In this document: in pieces, positions 97 through 13,176 of the stretch
Numbering within the stretch: position 1 is the stretch's first letter
Layout of the letters: every line of letters starts with the position of its first letter
Source: Opitutaceae bacterium
GTDB taxonomy: Bacteria; Verrucomicrobiota; Verrucomicrobiia; Opitutales; Opitutaceae
NCBI GenBank assembly: GCA_031254955.1
Contig: JAIRTK010000158.1
Coordinates: 1 to 16,083, forward strand
Reading direction: 5' to 3'
DNA length: 16,083 nt
Notes under the pieces: generated by a model
Told to the model about the DNA's origin: nothing
Database searches by the model: none
The model's input: the letters and a program-made list of their open reading frames with translations, nothing else
Program-made: the position numbers and the translations under genes

Positions 97-3000
97 TTGA
101 ATCGCACCGCAATGAATCCCCTGAAACAAAAATGGCTCGCGCGCGCCCTGCTCCTGACCGGGGCGGTTTTGGGCGCGGCGTGGCTGTGGTCGCTGGATTT
201 TTCGCGGAAGATTTCGCACGATCTCCTCGACTTGGTTCCGGGCGGGGAACGCGCGGCGGAACTGGCGGTGGTGCGTTCGCTGGCAAACGAGAAACAGGCG
301 CGGGTGGCGTTGTTCGCGTTGCGCGCGCCGGAGGGTGGCGCGGGTGCGGGGGCGTTGCGCGCGGCGGGGAGCGGCACGGATGCGGGTGTGTTGCACGCGT
401 CGGGGCGTGGCGCGGGCGCGGGGGCGTTGCGCGCAGCGGAGGGTGGCGCGGGGGCGAGGGCGTTGCGCGCGTCGGGGAGCGGCACGGATGCGGGTGTGTT
501 GCACGCGTCGGGGAGTGGCGCGGGGGCGGGGGCGGCGGAAGCGTTTGCGGGGGCGGTGGAGGCGTTTGCGGGGGCGTTGCGCGCGTCGGCGGCGTTTGTC
601 GAGGTGGAGATGGCGGACGATACCCGTTCGCGCGATGCGTTGGGCCGGCAGATTTTCGAGCAGCGCATGGAGTTGTTGTTGCCCGGCTGGCTGGCGGAGA
701 AGCGGCGGGAGTTCGAGGCCGCGATGGCGGCGTCTCGCGCGGGTGCTGTTGGCATGGCTGGTAGGGAGGCCTCTCCGAGGCCTCCGCGAGAACGCGCGCA
801 AGACGAAAGAAATTCGGATTTGGGTTTCCCGCTCGGCGGAGGCCTCGGAGAGGCCTCCCTACCAGGAATGGCGGCAGCGATGGAAACGGCGGCGGTGGCG
901 GAAACGGCGGCGGCGATGGGGGCGGCGGCGGGTGCAGCGGCGACGGGAACCACGGTGGCGGCGGAAACTACGGCGGCGGCGGGAATCACGGTGGCGGCGG
1001 CGGGGGGAATGGCGGGGGCGGGGGGGGATTTTGCCGGCTGGGTGGCGGGGCGGGCGGCGGCGGAGCTGGAGGCGTTTCTGGCCAGGCCGGAGGCGCTGGC
1101 GTTTCAGGAGGCGCTGCCGGCGGATCCGTTGCTGCTGTTGCCGGGGTTGGTGGAAAGGGTGTTGGCGCCGGGCGGGGAGCCGGAGGCGCCGGCGGGGGTG
1201 GCGCTGGTGTGGGCGTTGACGCGCGACAAGCCGATGGAGGCGGCGGGGCAGGGGCCGGTGTTCGCGGCGGTGGAGGAGGCGCTGGCGGCGGCGCGCGCGG
1301 TGGAGCCGGGGGTGGAGCTGCGGTGGACGGGCATCGCGCGGTTCGCGGAGGAAAACAGCCGCCGCATCCGGCAGGAGATGTCGCTGCTGAACGCGCTTTC
1401 GCTCGCGGCGGTGCTGGGGGTGGCGGCGGTCTGCCTGCGGCGGATTGTGAAGGCGTTGCATCTCGCGCCGGTCGTGCTGGGCGCGGTGCTGGGGGCGTGG
1501 GTGGCGGTGACGCTGGCGTTTGAGCGCGTGCATGTGCTGGTGTTTGTCATCGGTTCGCTGCTGGCGGGCGTGGCGATCGACTACGGGTTTTATCTTTATC
1601 TCCAGCCGCCGTTGTATCCGGGCGAGCACTACAGCGAGAAGGCGCGCCGGCTGATGAAGCCGTTGCTGGGGAGCGCGCTGACCACGGTCATCGGGTTTTC
1701 GTTGCTGATGTTTTCCGATCTGCCGTTGATCCGCCAGCTGGGGGTGTTTGTCAGCGCGGGGCTGCTGGCGGCGCTGGCGGCGGCGTTGTTGTGGTTCGCG
1801 CAGGTGCGCGAGCCGTTCATGCGGACGCGGGCGTTTGCACGGGCGCAGGCGAGGCCGTCGCGGCGCGGGCGCGGGGTGGCGCGGGCGGCGTTGGGCGTCA
1901 TCGCGGCGGCGGCGTTGGGCGGGCCGTGGCTGCTGCATTGGCGCGACGATATTCGCGAGCTGGAAATCCCGACTCCGGAGTTGCGGCGCGAGGCGCTGGA
2001 GTTGCGGGCGTTGTTCGGGGAGTCGGCGCGGCGCACGGTTTACCTGACGCGCGGCGCGACGCCGGGCGCGGCCCGGCAGGCGCTGGAGGGGTTTTTCGCG
2101 TGGCACGCGGAGGCGTTTCCGGGGAGCGCGGCGGCGTCGCTGGGGCAGGCGTTGCCGTTGCCGGGGGATTGGGTCGCGGGGGGCGCGCGGCTGGCGGAGC
2201 TGGTGCGCGGGGATTTCGCCGGAAAGTTTCGCGGGGCGCTGGAGCGGCGGGAGTTTGACGCGGAGGAGTTCGGGGCGTTTTTCGCGGCGTGGCGCGAGCG
2301 GGCGGCGGCGGCGGAGAGGGATGGGGAATTTCAATCGGGTCCCGCGGGCATGGGCGGCGGGGTGGCCGCTCCGGGGTGGCCGCGGGAAGGCGCGGCTGGC
2401 GGAAGCGATTCGGAGAGGGTTTCCTCGGGCGACGGGAGGCGCGGAGAGACCTCCCTGCCGGCCATGCCCATGATGGCGGCAAGAAATTACGATGGGGCGG
2501 CGCGCGCGCTGGCGGGGGCGTTGCGCGGGCGGATGGCGTTGTTGATGTCCACGACGCCGGGGGAATGCTGGTTTTTGACCGTGGCGAATCACGCGCCGGG
2601 CGAGGAGCCGCCGGCGGGGCTGGGCACCATCAGCCTTGACCAGTTGGAGACGTTGAACCGTTTGTTCGCGCGGTATCGCGTGTCGGCGTTGCGGTTGAGC
2701 GCGCTCGGGCTGGCGTTGGTGGGGTTGAGCATGTGGGTGATTTACGGCGTGGGGCGCGGCACGCGGATTTTCGCGACGCCGGTGGGGTCGTGTTTGTTTG
2801 CGTTTGGCGTGCTCGGGCTGGCGGGGCGGGACTTGAATTTGTTTCATTTGCTGGGCGCGTTTCTCGGTGTCTGCCTGAGCCACAACTACGCGATTTTCGA
2901 CGCGGAGAACGACGCTCGGGGCGAGGAGCCGCCGCCGTCCATCCGGCTGTCGGCGTTGAGCACGGCGGCCTCGTTCGGCGTGCTGGCGTTGAGCCGCATC

Positions 3001-3120
3001 CCGGTGGTGGAGGCGTTGGGCGCCACGGTGGCGCTGGTCGTGCTGGGCGCGCTCGCAATCGTGGAGTTGAAACGCGTGGCGCGGCGCGCCAAGGCTAATG
3101 GGAAAACGCAGCATGAATAA
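97..3120 (+). CDS. MMPL/RND-type predicted exporter with expanded periplasmic loops
   Basis: This is a predicted inner-membrane exporter of the MMPL/RND superfamily, probably moving a lipid or acyl product using the proton gradient. The layout is two homologous halves: TM1 at about residues 13-33, a large periplasmic loop at 34-427, and TM2-6 from about 431 to 575 with an acidic residue in GVAIDYG. TM7 is at about 595-615, a second loop runs from 616 to 860, and TM8-12 fill the C-terminus with an equivalent GVCLSHNYAIF segment. At 1007 codons it is some 200 residues longer than the usual 750-800. The excess lies in the loops: a 12-residue tandem repeat at 79-146, palindromic-element peptides at 219-259 and 751-791, and an Ala/Gly block at about 260-310. 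The start is TTG at 97, with GGAG 10 bases upstream; ATG at 112 is the alternative. It is translationally close to the radical SAM gene. The substrate is not readable from sequence. Confidence 0.85.
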   Translation: MNRTAMNPLKQKWLARALLLTGAVLGAAWLWSLDFSRKISHDLLDLVPGGERAAELAVVRSLANEKQARVALFALRAPEGGAGAGALRAAGSGTDAGVLHASGRGAGAGALRAAEGGAGARALRASGSGTDAGVLHASGSGAGAGAAEAFAGAVEAFAGALRASAAFVEVEMADDTRSRDALGRQIFEQRMELLLPGWLAEKRREFEAAMAASRAGAVGMAGREASPRPPRERAQDERNSDLGFPLGGGLGEASLPGMAAAMETAAVAETAAAMGAAAGAAATGTTVAAETTAAAGITVAAAGGMAGAGGDFAGWVAGRAAAELEAFLARPEALAFQEALPADPLLLLPGLVERVLAPGGEPEAPAGVALVWALTRDKPMEAAGQGPVFAAVEEALAAARAVEPGVELRWTGIARFAEENSRRIRQEMSLLNALSLAAVLGVAAVCLRRIVKALHLAPVVLGAVLGAWVAVTLAFERVHVLVFVIGSLLAGVAIDYGFYLYLQPPLYPGEHYSEKARRLMKPLLGSALTTVIGFSLLMFSDLPLIRQLGVFVSAGLLAALAAALLWFAQVREPFMRTRAFARAQARPSRRGRGVARAALGVIAAAALGGPWLLHWRDDIRELEIPTPELRREALELRALFGESARRTVYLTRGATPGAARQALEGFFAWHAEAFPGSAAASLGQALPLPGDWVAGGARLAELVRGDFAGKFRGALERREFDAEEFGAFFAAWRERAAAAERDGEFQSGPAGMGGGVAAPGWPREGAAGGSDSERVSSGDGRRGETSLPAMPMMAARNYDGAARALAGALRGRMALLMSTTPGECWFLTVANHAPGEEPPAGLGTISLDQLETLNRLFARYRVSALRLSALGLALVGLSMWVIYGVGRGTRIFATPVGSCLFAFGVLGLAGRDLNLFHLLGAFLGVCLSHNYAIFDAENDARGEEPPPSIRLSALSTAASFGVLALSRIPVVEALGATVALVVLGALAIVELKRVARRAKANGKTQHE
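331..534 (+). repeat. 36-bp coding minisatellite in exporter loop 1
   Basis: Five full 36-bp units start at 331, 367, 403, 439 and 475, followed by a partial unit at 511-534. Each encodes 12 residues. Two types occur in the order A-B-A-A-B: type A reads EGGAGAGALRAA or close to it, and type B reads GSGTDAGVLHAS. The two type B units (367-402 and 475-510) are identical in nucleotide sequence. The unit is a multiple of three, so copy-number change would keep the frame. A related 21-bp degenerate repeat follows at 535-576. Confidence 0.9.
751..873 (+). repeat. Palindromic element, in-frame copy 1, in exporter loop 1
   Basis: The core is a perfect 28-bp inverted repeat, 760-787 against 836-863, beginning GGTAGGGAGGCCTCTCCGAG, around a 48-bp centre. 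This gives a 104-bp core. Weaker similarity between the flanks (GGCATGGCT on the left, AGGAATGGC on the right) extends the unit to about 751-873, 123 bp or 41 codons. It is read as protein with no stop, giving residues 219-259 (GMAGREASPRPPRE... to ...GEASLPGMA). The same element, diverged, lies at 2347-2469 in the same gene and again between genes at 11170-11272. The exact ends are uncertain. Confidence 0.85.
873..1032 (+). repeat. GC-triplet low-complexity block coding Ala/Gly/Thr
   Basis: Immediately after palindromic copy 1 the exporter gene runs through GCG, GCA, GGC and ACG triplets. These encode an Ala/Gly/Thr-rich stretch with recurring AAAE and TVAA words (about residues 260-311). 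No fold is expected. It lies in periplasmic loop 1 and reads as triplet expansion rather than conserved domain. Confidence 0.7.
2347..2469 (+). repeat. Palindromic element, in-frame copy 2, in exporter loop 2
   Basis: This is a diverged copy of the element at 751-873. The 104-bp core, 2356-2459, has exactly the same length and aligns end to end with copy 1 without needing a net gap. The right half is clearest (ATTCGGA, GGGTTTCC, then GGAGAGACCTCCCTGCC). The inverted-repeat arms are imperfect here. It is translated in the same frame of the element as copy 1, giving residues 751-791. The peptides share 17 of 41 positions, including GM, PRE and GE-SLP-M. Confidence 0.8.
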
Positions 3121-3129
3121 GGTGAACCG

Positions 3130-4623
3130 ATGAGCGACGAACACAGGTGCCAGTGCCGCGCGGGGATCGCGCAGGATGTATCCGAAACAGGGATACCGCC
3201 GGATGGCCGCGGGCCGCGCGGCGGGGGCGGGGGCGGGCGGGTTTTGTTGATCAATCTCAACCGCTACGAGCAGCCGTATCCGGTTTATCCGCTGGGGTTG
3301 AGTTATGTGGACGGGGCGCTGCGGGCGGCGGGTTTCGAGACGCGGCTGTGGGATTCCTACGCGGGGCGGGGCACGATCGAGGAGTGCCTCGACGCGTTTC
3401 AGCCGGATTTCGTGGGGCTTTCGTTGCGGAACATCGACAACGCGCAGAGCCACAATCCGCTGTCGTTCGTGCGCGATCTGGCGGATTGCTGCGGGCGGCT
3501 GCGTCCGCGCACGCGCGCGCCGCTCATCGTGGGAGGGAGCGGGTTTTCCGTTTTTCCGAAGGAGCTGCTGGAGTTGACCGGCGCGGATTACGGCGTGCAG
3601 GGCGAGGGCGAGGCGGTGCTCGTGGCCTTGCTGGCGGCGTTGCGCGACGGGCGCGGCGTCGAGGGGCTGCCGGGCGTGGCGTGGCGCGACGCGGAGGGCG
3701 CGACGCAGTGCAACGCGCGGCGGGCCGTGCAGGCGGGGTTCACCGCCAAGCCCGCGCACGATCCGGAGGTGCTCAGGGCCTATGCGGCGCACGGCTCGCT
3801 CATCGGCGTGCAGACCCAGCGCGGCTGCCCGTTGAAATGCTGTTACTGCGCGTATCCGCTCATCGAGGGGCGGCGCAGCCGGTTCCGCAGCGGGCCGGAG
3901 GTCGCGGAGGAGATGGCGCGGCTGGCGGCGGAGGGCGTGCGCTACACGTTTATCGTCGATTCGGTTTTCAACACCCGCGACGACCACGTGGTCGAGGTGT
4001 GCGAGGCGCTCATCCGGGCCGGCATCGACATGGAGTGGGAGTGTTTCCTGCGTCCGCGCGGGGTGAGCCGCGAATTGCTCGCGCTGATGCGGCGCGCGGG
4101 GCTGCGGCACGTGGAGTTTGGCTCGGACAGTTTTTGCGACCCGGTGCTCGCGCGCTACGGGAAAAGTTTCACCTACGACGACGTGCGCCGCATCAGCGAG
4201 GACGCCGCCGCGCTCGACATCAAATACAGCCATTTCCTGATTTTCGGCGGTCCGGGCGAGACGCCGGAGTCGGTCGAGGAAACGCTGCGCCGCGCGGAGA
4301 CGCTGCCGGGGGCGTTTTATTTCGCGACCATCGGCATGAGGATTTATCCCGGCACGGCGCTCTGGGAGCAGGCCGGCCCCGGAGCGACGGGCGGGAGGCC
4401 GGAGGATTTCCTCGGCGTGCCGCGTTTTTATCTGGAGCCGCCGCTGACGGTGCAGGGCCTGTATTCGCGTCTGTGGACAGTGCGAAAAAACGCGCACAAC
4501 TGGGTGGTGGGCGACCCGCCGCCGGCGTTTGTGGCGACGATGGAAAAGCTCCGCCAGCGCGGCATTCGCGGCCCGCTCTGGGAATACATCGAGGTGCTGC
4601 AACGCTACGCGGGGGCGGTGTAA
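3130..4623 (+). CDS. B12-binding domain radical SAM protein
   Basis: This enzyme pairs an N-terminal cobalamin-binding Rossmann-like domain (about residues 38-175) with a radical SAM barrel. The [4Fe-4S] motif CxxxCxxC is C233-PLK-C237-CY-C240. The B12 domain begins RVLLINLNRYEQPYPVYPLG and lacks the canonical DxHxxG lower-ligand motif, as many members of this class do. GGSGFSVFP and GVQGEGEAV match the family's GG and GEGE segments. Such proteins methylate or rearrange unactivated carbons, several in lipid or natural-product pathways; the substrate here is unknown. AAGG at 3119-3122 overlaps the exporter stop and sits 7 bases before the ATG, so the two genes are very likely co-transcribed and coupled. 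Residues 1-37 are Gly-rich and poorly conserved in appearance, so a later start is possible. The partnership with the exporter suggests a membrane-lipid product. Confidence 0.85.
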   Translation: MSDEHRCQCRAGIAQDVSETGIPPDGRGPRGGGGGGRVLLINLNRYEQPYPVYPLGLSYVDGALRAAGFETRLWDSYAGRGTIEECLDAFQPDFVGLSLRNIDNAQSHNPLSFVRDLADCCGRLRPRTRAPLIVGGSGFSVFPKELLELTGADYGVQGEGEAVLVALLAALRDGRGVEGLPGVAWRDAEGATQCNARRAVQAGFTAKPAHDPEVLRAYAAHGSLIGVQTQRGCPLKCCYCAYPLIEGRRSRFRSGPEVAEEMARLAAEGVRYTFIVDSVFNTRDDHVVEVCEALIRAGIDMEWECFLRPRGVSRELLALMRRAGLRHVEFGSDSFCDPVLARYGKSFTYDDVRRISEDAAALDIKYSHFLIFGGPGETPESVEETLRRAETLPGAFYFATIGMRIYPGTALWEQAGPGATGGRPEDFLGVPRFYLEPPLTVQGLYSRLWTVRKNAHNWVVGDPPPAFVATMEKLRQRGIRGPLWEYIEVLQRYAGAV

Positions 4624-11370: not shown

Positions 11371-13176
11371 TCACCAGACGAGCAATCCGCCTGCGAAGGT
11401 CATGCCGGCGCCCACACTGCAAAAGATGATCTTGTCGCCGGGGTTGAAGATGCCTTCCTCGGCGGCCCAGCCGAGCGCCATCGAGACACTGGCGGCGGAG
11501 GTGTTGCCGTATTTGCCGATCGTGACCACGAAGCGTTCGTAGGGGATGCCGACGCGTTTGCTCACGGCGCGCAGGATGCGTTCGTTGGCTTGGTGCGGGA
11601 CGATCCACGCGATGTCGGAGGGCGCGAGGTCGTGGCGTTTGAGGGTGTCGGCGATGAGGTCGGCGAAGGCGATGACGGCGTGCTTGAAGACGGCGGCGCC
11701 GTTCATTTGGAGGAAAAAGTCGTCGCGGTCGTTGCCCGCGGCGTTGGGCACGGGGCGGCGGGCGCCGCCGCCGGGCCGCTGGATGGCGGCGAACTGGTCG
11801 GCGTCGCCGGAGAGCGCCATGCGCGCGAGGCGGTGCCCGCCGGTCGCGTCGGTGAGGATGGCCGCGCCGGCGCCGTCGCCGAAGAGGAAGGCGGTGGCGT
11901 GGTCGCGCGGGTTGGTGATGCGCGAGAGCAGCTCGGCGGTGACGACGATGAGTTTTTTCGCGGTGCCGGAGCGGATGAAGGCGCGGCCGACTTCGAGCGC
12001 GTAGAGCCAGCCGGCGCAGGCGGCGTTGAGGTCGAAGGCCAGGGCGCGCGGGATGCCGAGTTCCCTGGCCAGGGCGCTGGCCATGGCGGGCACGGGTTGG
12101 TCGGGGAGGAGCGTGGCCATGATCACGCCGTCGATTTCGCCGAGGTCGATGCCGGACTGTCCGGCGGCGCGTCGCACGGCGATGACCGCCAGCCCGGTGG
12201 CGGTCTCGCCTTCGGCGGCGTAGCGGCGTTCGCGGATGCCGGTGAGTTTGACGATTTCCGCCTCAGTCATGTCGGGGAAGGCTTTCAGGATTTCTTTGTT
12301 GAAGCGGACGCCGGAGGGGATCGCGTAGCCGACGCCGGCGATGCAAACCGTCCCGTCGTCGGCGGGCGTGGCGGCTGGCGCGGGCACGGCGGCGGGCGTG
12401 GTGAACGCGTGTGTGGCGAGGTGGCGGGTTACGTCGTCGCCGGAGACGCGTCCGCCGGGGCCGGTGGCTTCAATGTCAGTGATGGCGGCGGGGTCTAGGC
12501 CTGCTTCCCGCGCGATTTTGATGGCCCGGGGCGTCCAGAGCGGGGTGGTGCCGGCGCGCGTGACGGGCATCGGCGGGCGCGAGTATGCGGAGGAGGCCAT
12601 GAAGACGGGGCTGGGGGTCGCCGGGGCGGAGTCCGCTGGGATGGGGCCGGCCAATGGCTTGGACGCGGCGGCGGCTGCTGCTGTGGCGGTAGCGGTAGCG
12701 GCGGCTGCGGTGTTGTTGTTGTTGGCGGTGGCGGCGGTGGTAGCGATGGCGTTGGTGGGAGCTGCGGCGGTGACGGGTGCTGCGGCAGTGGCGTTAGCGG
12801 CGGCGGCGGTGTTAGCCGCGGCAGTGGCGTTGGTGGCGGCGTCGTCGGCAGTGTTGTCGGGTGGCGGGTTTGTCTTGGGCGCGGAGCTGGCGGAGCCGGT
12901 GGCGATGGCGAGATGTTTCAGGGAAAGGTCGGCGGTTTCGATGCGCAGAAAAGGCGCGCCGGGCGGAAGAATGTCCCCGGCCCGGACGATGATGGACTGG
13001 ATGGTTCCGTCGCAGGGCGCCTCGAATTCAAAGACGGATTTGTCGCTTTCGAGTTCGGCGATTTTCTGGCCTTTGGAGACGGTCGCGCCGGGTTGCGTGA
13101 CGATGTCGATGACGGTGAGTTCGGTCACAGTGGCCCCCATGGAGGGCACGGGGACTTCGATGAGCAAGGTATCCAT
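11371..13176 (-). CDS. Lipoyl domain, E3-binding domain and KAS III (FabH-type) fusion
   Basis: This 601-residue protein joins parts normally kept apart. Residues 1-80 are a lipoyl carrier domain, with the attachment lysine Lys46 in ELESDKSVFEF (lipoyl-type, not the biotin-type MKM). Residues 97-190 are an Ala/Thr/Asn/Pro linker. Residues 213-255 are a peripheral-subunit-binding domain (TPRAIKIAREAGLDP, then TGPGGRVSGDDV), as used in dehydrogenase E2 proteins to dock E1 or E3. Residues 275-601 are a full KAS III with the triad Cys387 (LNAACAGW), His528 (IVPHQANERIL) and Asn558 (KYGNTSAASV). The KAS III thus sits where E2 has its acyltransferase core. KAS III enzymes start fatty-acid or polyketide chains by condensing an acyl primer with malonyl-ACP. 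I infer that the primer arrives on lipoyl-Lys46 rather than as CoA ester. No E1, E3 or ACP gene is adjacent. ATG 13176 begins the lipoyl domain correctly; no Shine-Dalgarno sequence is visible. Confidence 0.92.
   Translation of the reverse strand: MDTLLIEVPVPSMGATVTELTVIDIVTQPGATVSKGQKIAELESDKSVFEFEAPCDGTIQSIIVRAGDILPPGAPFLRIETADLSLKHLAIATGSASSAPKTNPPPDNTADDAATNATAAANTAAAANATAAAPVTAAAPTNAIATTAATANNNNTAAAATATATAAAAAASKPLAGPIPADSAPATPSPVFMASSAYSRPPMPVTRAGTTPLWTPRAIKIAREAGLDPAAITDIEATGPGGRVSGDDVTRHLATHAFTTPAAVPAPAATPADDGTVCIAGVGYAIPSGVRFNKEILKAFPDMTEAEIVKLTGIRERRYAAEGETATGLAVIAVRRAAGQSGIDLGEIDGVIMATLLPDQPVPAMASALARELGIPRALAFDLNAACAGWLYALEVGRAFIRSGTAKKLIVVTAELLSRITNPRDHATAFLFGDGAGAAILTDATGGHRLARMALSGDADQFAAIQRPGGGARRPVPNAAGNDRDDFFLQMNGAAVFKHAVIAFADLIADTLKRHDLAPSDIAWIVPHQANERILRAVSKRVGIPYERFVVTIGKYGNTSAASVSMALGWAAEEGIFNPGDKIIFCSVGAGMTFAGGLLVW

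Follow-up and report, generated by a model that had tools for sequence, protein, structure and literature searches.

Known systems and the fusion gene

E2 dihydrolipoyl acyltransferases carry a lipoyl domain, an Ala-rich linker and a peripheral-subunit-binding domain (PSBD), in that order, and PSBDs dock complexes. In textbook branched-chain fatty acid synthesis, a 2-oxoacid is converted to an acyl-CoA, which is then taken up by FabH. In complexes of E. coli FabH, Thr28 bonds to the adenine of CoA, which is stacked between Trp32 and Arg151, and Arg36 holds the CoA phosphopantetheine (PMC4606726).

The window analyzed here is the whole stretch of 16,083 nucleotides of an Opitutaceae contig, and it encodes a fusion in which these two known kinds of protein are combined. 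This fusion is a strong candidate for experiment. In a single open frame of 601 amino acids, Pfam detected Biotin_lipoyl at residues 7-79 (3e-14), E3_binding at 215-249 (2e-10), ACP_syn_III at 381-456 (4e-24) and ACP_syn_III_C at 512-601 (1e-28). The PSBD model PF02817 scored 41.1 bits against a cut-off of 23.7, and the 2-oxoacid_dh catalytic core (PF00198) was absent from the protein according to Pfam. In NCBIfam, the KAS III model NF006829 scored 306 bits, above its cut-off of 249, and TIGR00747 (fabH) 281.7 bits, below its cut-off of 292.1. The open frame and the Pfam matches thus confirm the order of domains (lipoyl, linker, PSBD, KAS III in one frame) claimed in an earlier sequence-only reading of this DNA, and Lys46, Cys387, His528 and Asn558 lie where that reading had placed them. 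The features are the following.

11371..13176, minus strand: lipoyl–PSBD–KAS III fusion gene, 601 aa (open frame; Pfam, NCBIfam; homologues, 120 listed)
12937..13176, minus strand: lipoyl domain, aa 1-80 (PF00364 at 7-79; 78% mean pairwise identity; pLDDT about 70-95)
13039..13041, minus strand: codon of Lys46, predicted lipoylation site in ESDKS (invariant 121/121; ESDKS in 80/80 genome loci)
12538..12906, minus strand: Ala-rich flexible linker, aa 91-213 (22.5% identity; length; pLDDT mostly <50)
12415..12537, minus strand: PSBD, aa 214-254 (PF02817; WTPRA 121/121)
11374..12351, minus strand: KAS III core, aa 276-601 (PF08545, PF08541, NF006829; best Foldseek matches are FabH structures)
12016..12018, minus strand: codon of catalytic Cys387 (121/121)
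11593..11595, minus strand: codon of catalytic His528 (121/121)
11503..11505, minus strand: codon of catalytic Asn558 (121/121)
12244..12270, minus strand: aa 303-311, the positions of Thr28, Trp32 and Arg36 (CoA) of E. coli FabH, here Met303, Glu307 and Leu311
11899..11901, minus strand: codon of His426, which replaces the CoA-stacking Arg151 of E. coli FabH

The AlphaFold model of the fusion is weak (mean pLDDT 62.7, with a patchy KAS part); FabH structures head the list of Foldseek matches obtained with it, which confirms the fold. The linker at 12538-12906, rich in Ala, Thr and Asn, is 122 residues long, the upper end of a family range of 32-122 whose median is 49, as if it had been expanded by repeats.

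Compared with FabH, the protein shares the fold, the Cys-His-Asn triad and Arg249, with about 34% identity to the E. coli enzyme. It differs by its N-terminal lipoyl domain and PSBD, by the lack of the CoA-binding residues Thr28, Trp32, Arg36 and Arg151 and by the replacement of Phe87 by Val or Ile. Compared with the E2 proteins of PDH, OGDH and BCKDH, it has the lipoyl domain, the Ala-rich linker and the PSBD in the same order, whereas KAS III stands in place of the 2-oxoacid_dh core.

In the preferred explanation, the fusion would accept acyl groups within a complex resembling a 2-oxoacid dehydrogenase, with KAS III substituted for the E2 acyltransferase core. A single-chain E1 (alpha plus beta) encoded elsewhere would decarboxylate a 2-oxoacid and would reductively acylate a lipoyl group on Lys46; the 2-oxoacid is most likely branched, for example 3-methyl-2-oxobutanoate. 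The acyl-lipoyl thioester would reach Cys387 by means of the flexible linker, and the KAS core would condense the acyl group with malonyl-ACP to give 3-oxoacyl-ACP. E3, presumably docked on the PSBD with or beside E1, would re-oxidise the dihydrolipoyl group, and acyl-CoA would be bypassed in chain initiation. We consider it quite probable that KAS III replaces the E2 core in this way and that the acyl group passes from the 2-oxoacid via the lipoyl group to Cys387 with CoA bypassed, because of the conserved arm, the orphan E1, their co-occurrence, their similar gene surroundings, the loss of CoA residues, a second layout and the gene order kept in split forms. The sequence-only reading had already proposed that an E1-loaded lipoyl arm delivers to Cys387 without free CoA; this would still be the best reading of the sequences, and the loss of CoA-holding residues in the KAS part and the existence of E1-lipoyl-KAS III chains add to it.

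Conservation, distribution and split forms of the fusion

Conservation was assessed on 121 sequences, namely the query and the best 120 of 1404 database matches. Biotin_lipoyl and both KAS III domains were present in 120/120 of these relatives, and the precomputed E3_binding domain in 114/120. Lys46, the Cys-His-Asn triad and the PSBD motif WTPRA were invariant in all 121 aligned sequences. Over 1500 random pairs, mean pairwise identity reached 78% for the lipoyl domain, 75% for the PSBD and 84% for the KAS part, against 22-23% for the two linkers. Since the linkers drift while the three domains do not, the lipoyl–PSBD arm is probably maintained by selection.

Scanning genome contigs yielded 281 relatives, and the 80 best loci among them were retained. 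Among these 80 loci, 57 are fusions in one frame, 22 are split into two genes and one (L011) appears to be frameshifted. An assembly artefact or frameshift as the origin of the fusion was ruled out, both by these 57 one-frame loci (best 80 of 281) and by the joint presence of the domains in 120/120 relatives (best 120 of 1404).

In the split form, a lipoyl–PSBD gene is directly followed by a KAS III gene, with a gap of 0-45 bases as judged from mechanical ORF ends; at the one junction that was read, a stop precedes a new ATG. The arms carry ESDKS in 80/80 and WTPRA in 79/80 of the best 80 of 281 genome loci, fused and split alike. A quick tree was built from 69 KAS domains, among them 10 of the 22 split forms and 23 fused ones with the query; in it the split forms made up one clade nested among the fused ones, consistent with one change. 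The sequence-only reading had seen a stop between the PSBD and KAS III as damaging to the idea of a fusion; such a stop is present in relatives (22/80), as a tidy two-gene version. Because the gene pair is tidy, forms a single nested clade and keeps the gene order, it speaks for a partnership of the two parts and not against it.

The titles of the best 80 loci refer to Opitutia or Verrucomicrobia, save three. Two of these carry the label of Sumerlaeota (L005, a contig of 3.2 kb) or Akkermansia (L069) and are perhaps mis-binned Opitutales DNA; the third, L071, is labelled as a plain bacterium and may be mis-binned as well. When 387 genomes of the phylum were sampled, 21 had a match at 1e-80, all within the window's own family, and among 132 genomes of the order the fusion was also found in two further families (f8 and f24). 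The names Opitutaceae and Opitutales for these sampled genomes are taken from how relatives are titled and named. Within the samples searched, the fusion is therefore confined to the window's order. No description of the lipoyl–PSBD–KAS III architecture was found in the titles and abstracts of the best-ranked results from the open-licence PMC literature.

The CoA site of the KAS part

The ordinary FabH proteins of 15 fusion-bearing genomes served as a control for the CoA residues; loss of the clamp alone is no proof of a lipoyl donor. Thr28, Trp32, Arg36 and Arg151 were each found in 15/15 of these ordinary FabHs and in 0/121 of the lipoyl–PSBD–KAS proteins (query and best 120 of 1404). The same four positions gave 0/80 each in the genome loci (best 80 of 281, one locus being gapped at three of them). 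The triad and Arg249, which we take to be the ACP docking residue, were conserved at 100% in all groups, Arg249 being present in 121/121 fusion proteins. Position 87 is occupied by Val or Ile in the fusion and by Met or Phe in the 15 ordinary FabHs, and residues deeper in the tunnel, for example Asn247, are conserved in the fusion. According to the PDB titles 2aj9 and 2ahb, Trp/Arg and Arg/Arg pairs of another FabH have been mutated for study.

The KAS part could still use acyl-CoA if the lipoyl–PSBD arm only anchored it to a dehydrogenase complex, where it would catch freshly made acyl-CoA. The KAS III domains and the triad are intact, the deeper tunnel residues are kept and PSBDs dock complexes, all of which would suit such a tethered enzyme. 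However, the four CoA-holding residues are lost in 121/121 fusion proteins while the FabHs of 15 fusion-bearing genomes keep them, and a mere anchor needs no lipoyl Lys invariant in 121/121. We regard continued use of acyl-CoA as improbable and retain a direct transfer from the lipoyl arm to Cys387 as the preferred reading.

The fusion as the sole FabH of its genome was ruled out, as an ordinary FabH was found in 15/16 related genomes; the remaining one (G009) shows only the fusion. In the window's genome, which is 68.7% complete, the fusion and two distant KAS-like genes were the only ones found. In three genomes without a lipoyl-type KAS (loci L254, L255 and L256), position 87 of the ordinary FabH is Ile or Leu, perhaps giving a wider pocket that takes over branched primers.

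An orphan E1 in fusion-bearing genomes

We searched the window's genome and 16 fusion-bearing genomes (n=17) for E2 cores (PF00198), E1 alpha domains (PF00676) and PSBDs. Each genome carries one or two E2 cores, with 29 in total across the 17 genomes. The closed genome IMCC26134 has only two: the first is a PDH E2 next to PDH E1 alpha and beta, each of the three exceeding its NCBIfam cut-off, and the second adjoins a 930-aa E1 of SucA size. This genome also encodes a third E1, in a 734-aa frame that lies more than 10 kb from any E2. E1 frames of 683-997 aa with no E2 core in the surrounding 10 kb were found in 15/17 genomes (the one of G010 lies 0.8 kb from a contig end); the other two, G000 (68.7% complete) and G013, showed none. 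Where translated, this orphan E1 is a single chain of about 680 aa comprising E1 alpha and beta (Pfam on three). Genome G130 has an orphan E1 and, among its three PSBD proteins, the fusion. The search for an E1 lacking a partner E2, suggested by the sequence-only reading, thus turned up a third, single-chain E1 in fusion-bearing genomes.

Co-occurrence of E1, arm and KAS

Strong orphan-E1 matches, defined as >800 bits or, in G112, as two clear pieces, were detected in 22/132 genomes of the order. In these 132 genomes, a KAS-bearing fusion or split form occurs together with E1 in 18, and 108 have neither. E1 occurs without a KAS-bearing fusion in four (G082, G096, G112 and G115), and the fusion without E1 in two (G000 and G127, 68.7% and 75% complete; Fisher 2e-16, ancestry ignored).

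A second set consisted of 36 genomes of the window's family with a completeness of at least 96%. Of these, 34 have both the arm and E1, and two, from different genera, have neither (Fisher 0.0016, ancestry ignored). In one of the two (G051) the arm was also missing from a PSBD search; in the other (G394) the absence holds among the matches listed, a weaker match being unlisted.

The KAS half is fused or split in 20 of the 34 genomes that have arm and E1, and in the other 14 no KAS match was found at E 1e-80. Two of these 14 were read (G082 and G096): no KAS gene adjoins the didomain, kdsA lies beside it (identified with NCBIfam in G082 and by resemblance in G096), and FabH retains the CoA residues. 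Stand-alone didomains of this kind were located as follows.

L228:5297-5770, minus strand: lipoyl–PSBD didomain beside kdsA, E1 present, KAS match absent
L238:7519-8100, minus strand: lipoyl–PSBD didomain beside kdsA, E1 present, KAS match absent

With E1 and arm present without a KAS match in 14/36 genomes, the two appear to be useful without a lipoyl-type KAS, and this count is the strongest fact against a strict mechanism in which the arm serves only its own KAS. Since fused genes occur in the other two families, the didomain-only genomes are more simply read as having lost the KAS half. E1-bearing frames of at least 1000 aa were found in 11/16 genomes without a lipoyl-type KAS and in 2/20 with one (Fisher 4e-4). 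The long frame ends in an E2 core in 3/3 that were domain-checked, out of 13 genomes, and one E1 frame of G082 consists of E1 and lipoyl domains only. As long E1 frames are commoner where the lipoyl-type KAS is missing, there are hints that an E1-E2-core route and the KAS route may substitute for each other.

Both of these observations would also suit a general donor module, in which E1 and arm serve several acceptors (another E2 core, CoA or an ordinary FabH) and the KAS III fusion is specific to some lineages. Against this, the fused form exists in all three families having E1 and the KAS domains of the two-gene version branch from within the fused family, so that the association with KAS looks old. 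We find a general donor module rather unlikely, and keep the transfer from the arm to its own KAS III as the main reading.

A second layout with E1 and KAS III in one chain

In family f20 of the same order, chains of about 1130 aa contain E1_dh, Transket_pyr, Transketolase_C, Biotin_lipoyl, ACP_syn_III and ACP_syn_III_C (3/3 tested by Pfam).

L239:1785-5171: E1alpha-E1beta-lipoyl-KAS III chain, about 1130 aa
L240:313-3732: E1alpha-E1beta-lipoyl-KAS III chain, about 1130 aa
L250:2416-5817: E1alpha-E1beta-lipoyl-KAS III chain, about 1130 aa

Most of the best 120 of 848 database matches have all six domains, and a few are shorter and have no E1_dh. These 120 comprise proteins from Puniceicoccales, Cerasicoccus, Ruficoccus, Pirellulales, Phycisphaeraceae, Spirochaetia, Syntrophobacteraceae and Sumerlaeota, and thus reach well outside Verrucomicrobia; the database names them, automatically, beta-ketoacyl-ACP synthase 3 or 3-methyl-2-oxobutanoate dehydrogenase. 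No characterised member was found among the best-ranked results from the open-licence PMC literature.

Like the fusion, these chains have KAS III after a lipoyl domain with an invariant Lys (121/121, the set including the best 120 of 848), and Thr28, Trp32 and Arg151 are absent (0/121 each). They differ in that they include E1, no PSBD was found in them, their KAS domains form a separate clade and Arg36 is retained in 67/121, a count that speaks against the proposed mechanism; position 87 is Thr in 107/121. The two KAS groups stand on long branches in the quick tree of 69 KAS domains. Other chains of the same order share the E1-lipoyl layout of the f20 chains but end in a 2-oxoacid_dh core, unlike KAS III, and should therefore make acyl-CoA. 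KAS III would thus occupy the place of the E2 core in two layouts.

We lean, with somewhat less assurance than for the mechanism proposed for the fusion, towards an oxidative ketosynthase existing in two gene layouts, in which KAS III stands for E2 and (branched) 2-oxoacids enter fatty acid synthesis free of acyl-CoA. If so, Opitutales would have a CoA-free starter route, and Puniceicoccales, Planctomycetes, Spirochaetes and others a version of it with E1 in the chain. Beside the textbook route, there would be a second entry in which a dehydrogenase passes the acyl group straight to a condensing enzyme. A database family bearing only the two automatic names would gain a function, and the E2 core would prove to be exchangeable, offering a compact tool for making branched lipids.

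Nature of the acyl group

One orphan E1 was searched against the PDB. Its beta half matched 1um9 best, at 207.7 bits, an entry titled 2-oxo acid dehydrogenase that we take to be a branched-chain enzyme; a PDH E1 beta followed at 201.7 bits. The best match of the alpha half was human branched-chain E1 alpha. In NCBIfam, the orphan E1 matches PDH E1 models alone, and these below cut-off, which counts against the proposed mechanism.

These scores bear on a version of the route based on pyruvate, in which PDH E1 or the orphan E1 would make acetyl-lipoyl for ordinary acetyl priming without CoA. It would agree with the NCBIfam models, with the near equality of the two PDB beta matches and with the PDH-like E1/E2 sets of many carriers (PDH confirmed in one). 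On the other side, the arm tracks the orphan E1 (34 with both and 2 with neither, of 36 genomes), the best PDB matches are 1um9, taken to be branched-chain, and human branched-chain E1 alpha, position 87 is Val or Ile and not Phe, and an ordinary FabH is present in 15/16 genomes. Acetyl priming from pyruvate seems to us quite unlikely, and an acyl group from a branched 2-oxoacid remains the preferred reading.

Protein P0045 of Nibricoccus aquaticus is a fusion, and this species contains iso-C14:0 (19.9%), anteiso-C15:0 (19.3%), C16:0 (16.8%) and iso-C16:0 (14.5%) according to a table in PMC12193912. Three Lacunisphaera strains contain 33.3, 48.6 and 9.1% iso-C15:0, the third also 15.4% iso-C14:0 (PMC5303756). 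Branched acids are also given for Puniceicoccus, Coraliomargarita and Alterococcaceae in the table of PMC12193912. Since branched acids also occur in families without the fusion, the fatty acid composition fits the proposal and does not discriminate, and its use as a discriminator was dropped. The sequence-only reading had guessed at branched primers. This guess stands weakly, on the E1 relatives, which include branched-chain enzymes, on Val/Ile87 and on the branched acids of one carrier; against it, PDH follows closely in the PDB and branched acids also occur without the fusion. Branched 2-oxoacids are thus weakly indicated as the substrate of the fusion system.

Genomic environment

In 46 of the 62 loci with enough upstream DNA, kdsA precedes the arm gene by a median of 75 bases; in three loci without kdsA, the arm gene comes directly after pyrG (genes of G082 named by NCBIfam). 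At loci L183-L197, a kdsC-like gene lies downstream of the orphan E1 gene on the same strand in 13/15, and genes resembling lptC, lptA and lptB also follow it in 12/15 each. KdsC (two loci) and LptB (one) scored above NCBIfam cut-offs, LptA-like was weak and LptC-like received no name. As arm and E1 both lie among KDO/LPS genes, a part in acyl-chain synthesis for the envelope would fit.

The E1 gene was not found beside the fusion among its conserved neighbours, and this lack of adjacency counts against the mechanism. In three genomes (G012, the same as G456; G016, the same as G428; and G409), E1 and fusion share a contig, with about 12-19 kb between them. In the window, the neighbours of the fusion are htpG and priA (Pfam), and kdsA is absent.

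Elsewhere in the window, at 97-4623, an MMPL-type transporter adjoins a B12-binding radical SAM protein that exceeds the TIGR04072 cut-off (rSAM_ladder_B12, lipid biosynthesis), and this pair may be the edge of a lipid or polyketide cluster. By eye, the N-terminal part of the MMPL frame (about 330-550) contains in-frame repeats (GSGTDAGVLHASG-like), perhaps a recent insertion.
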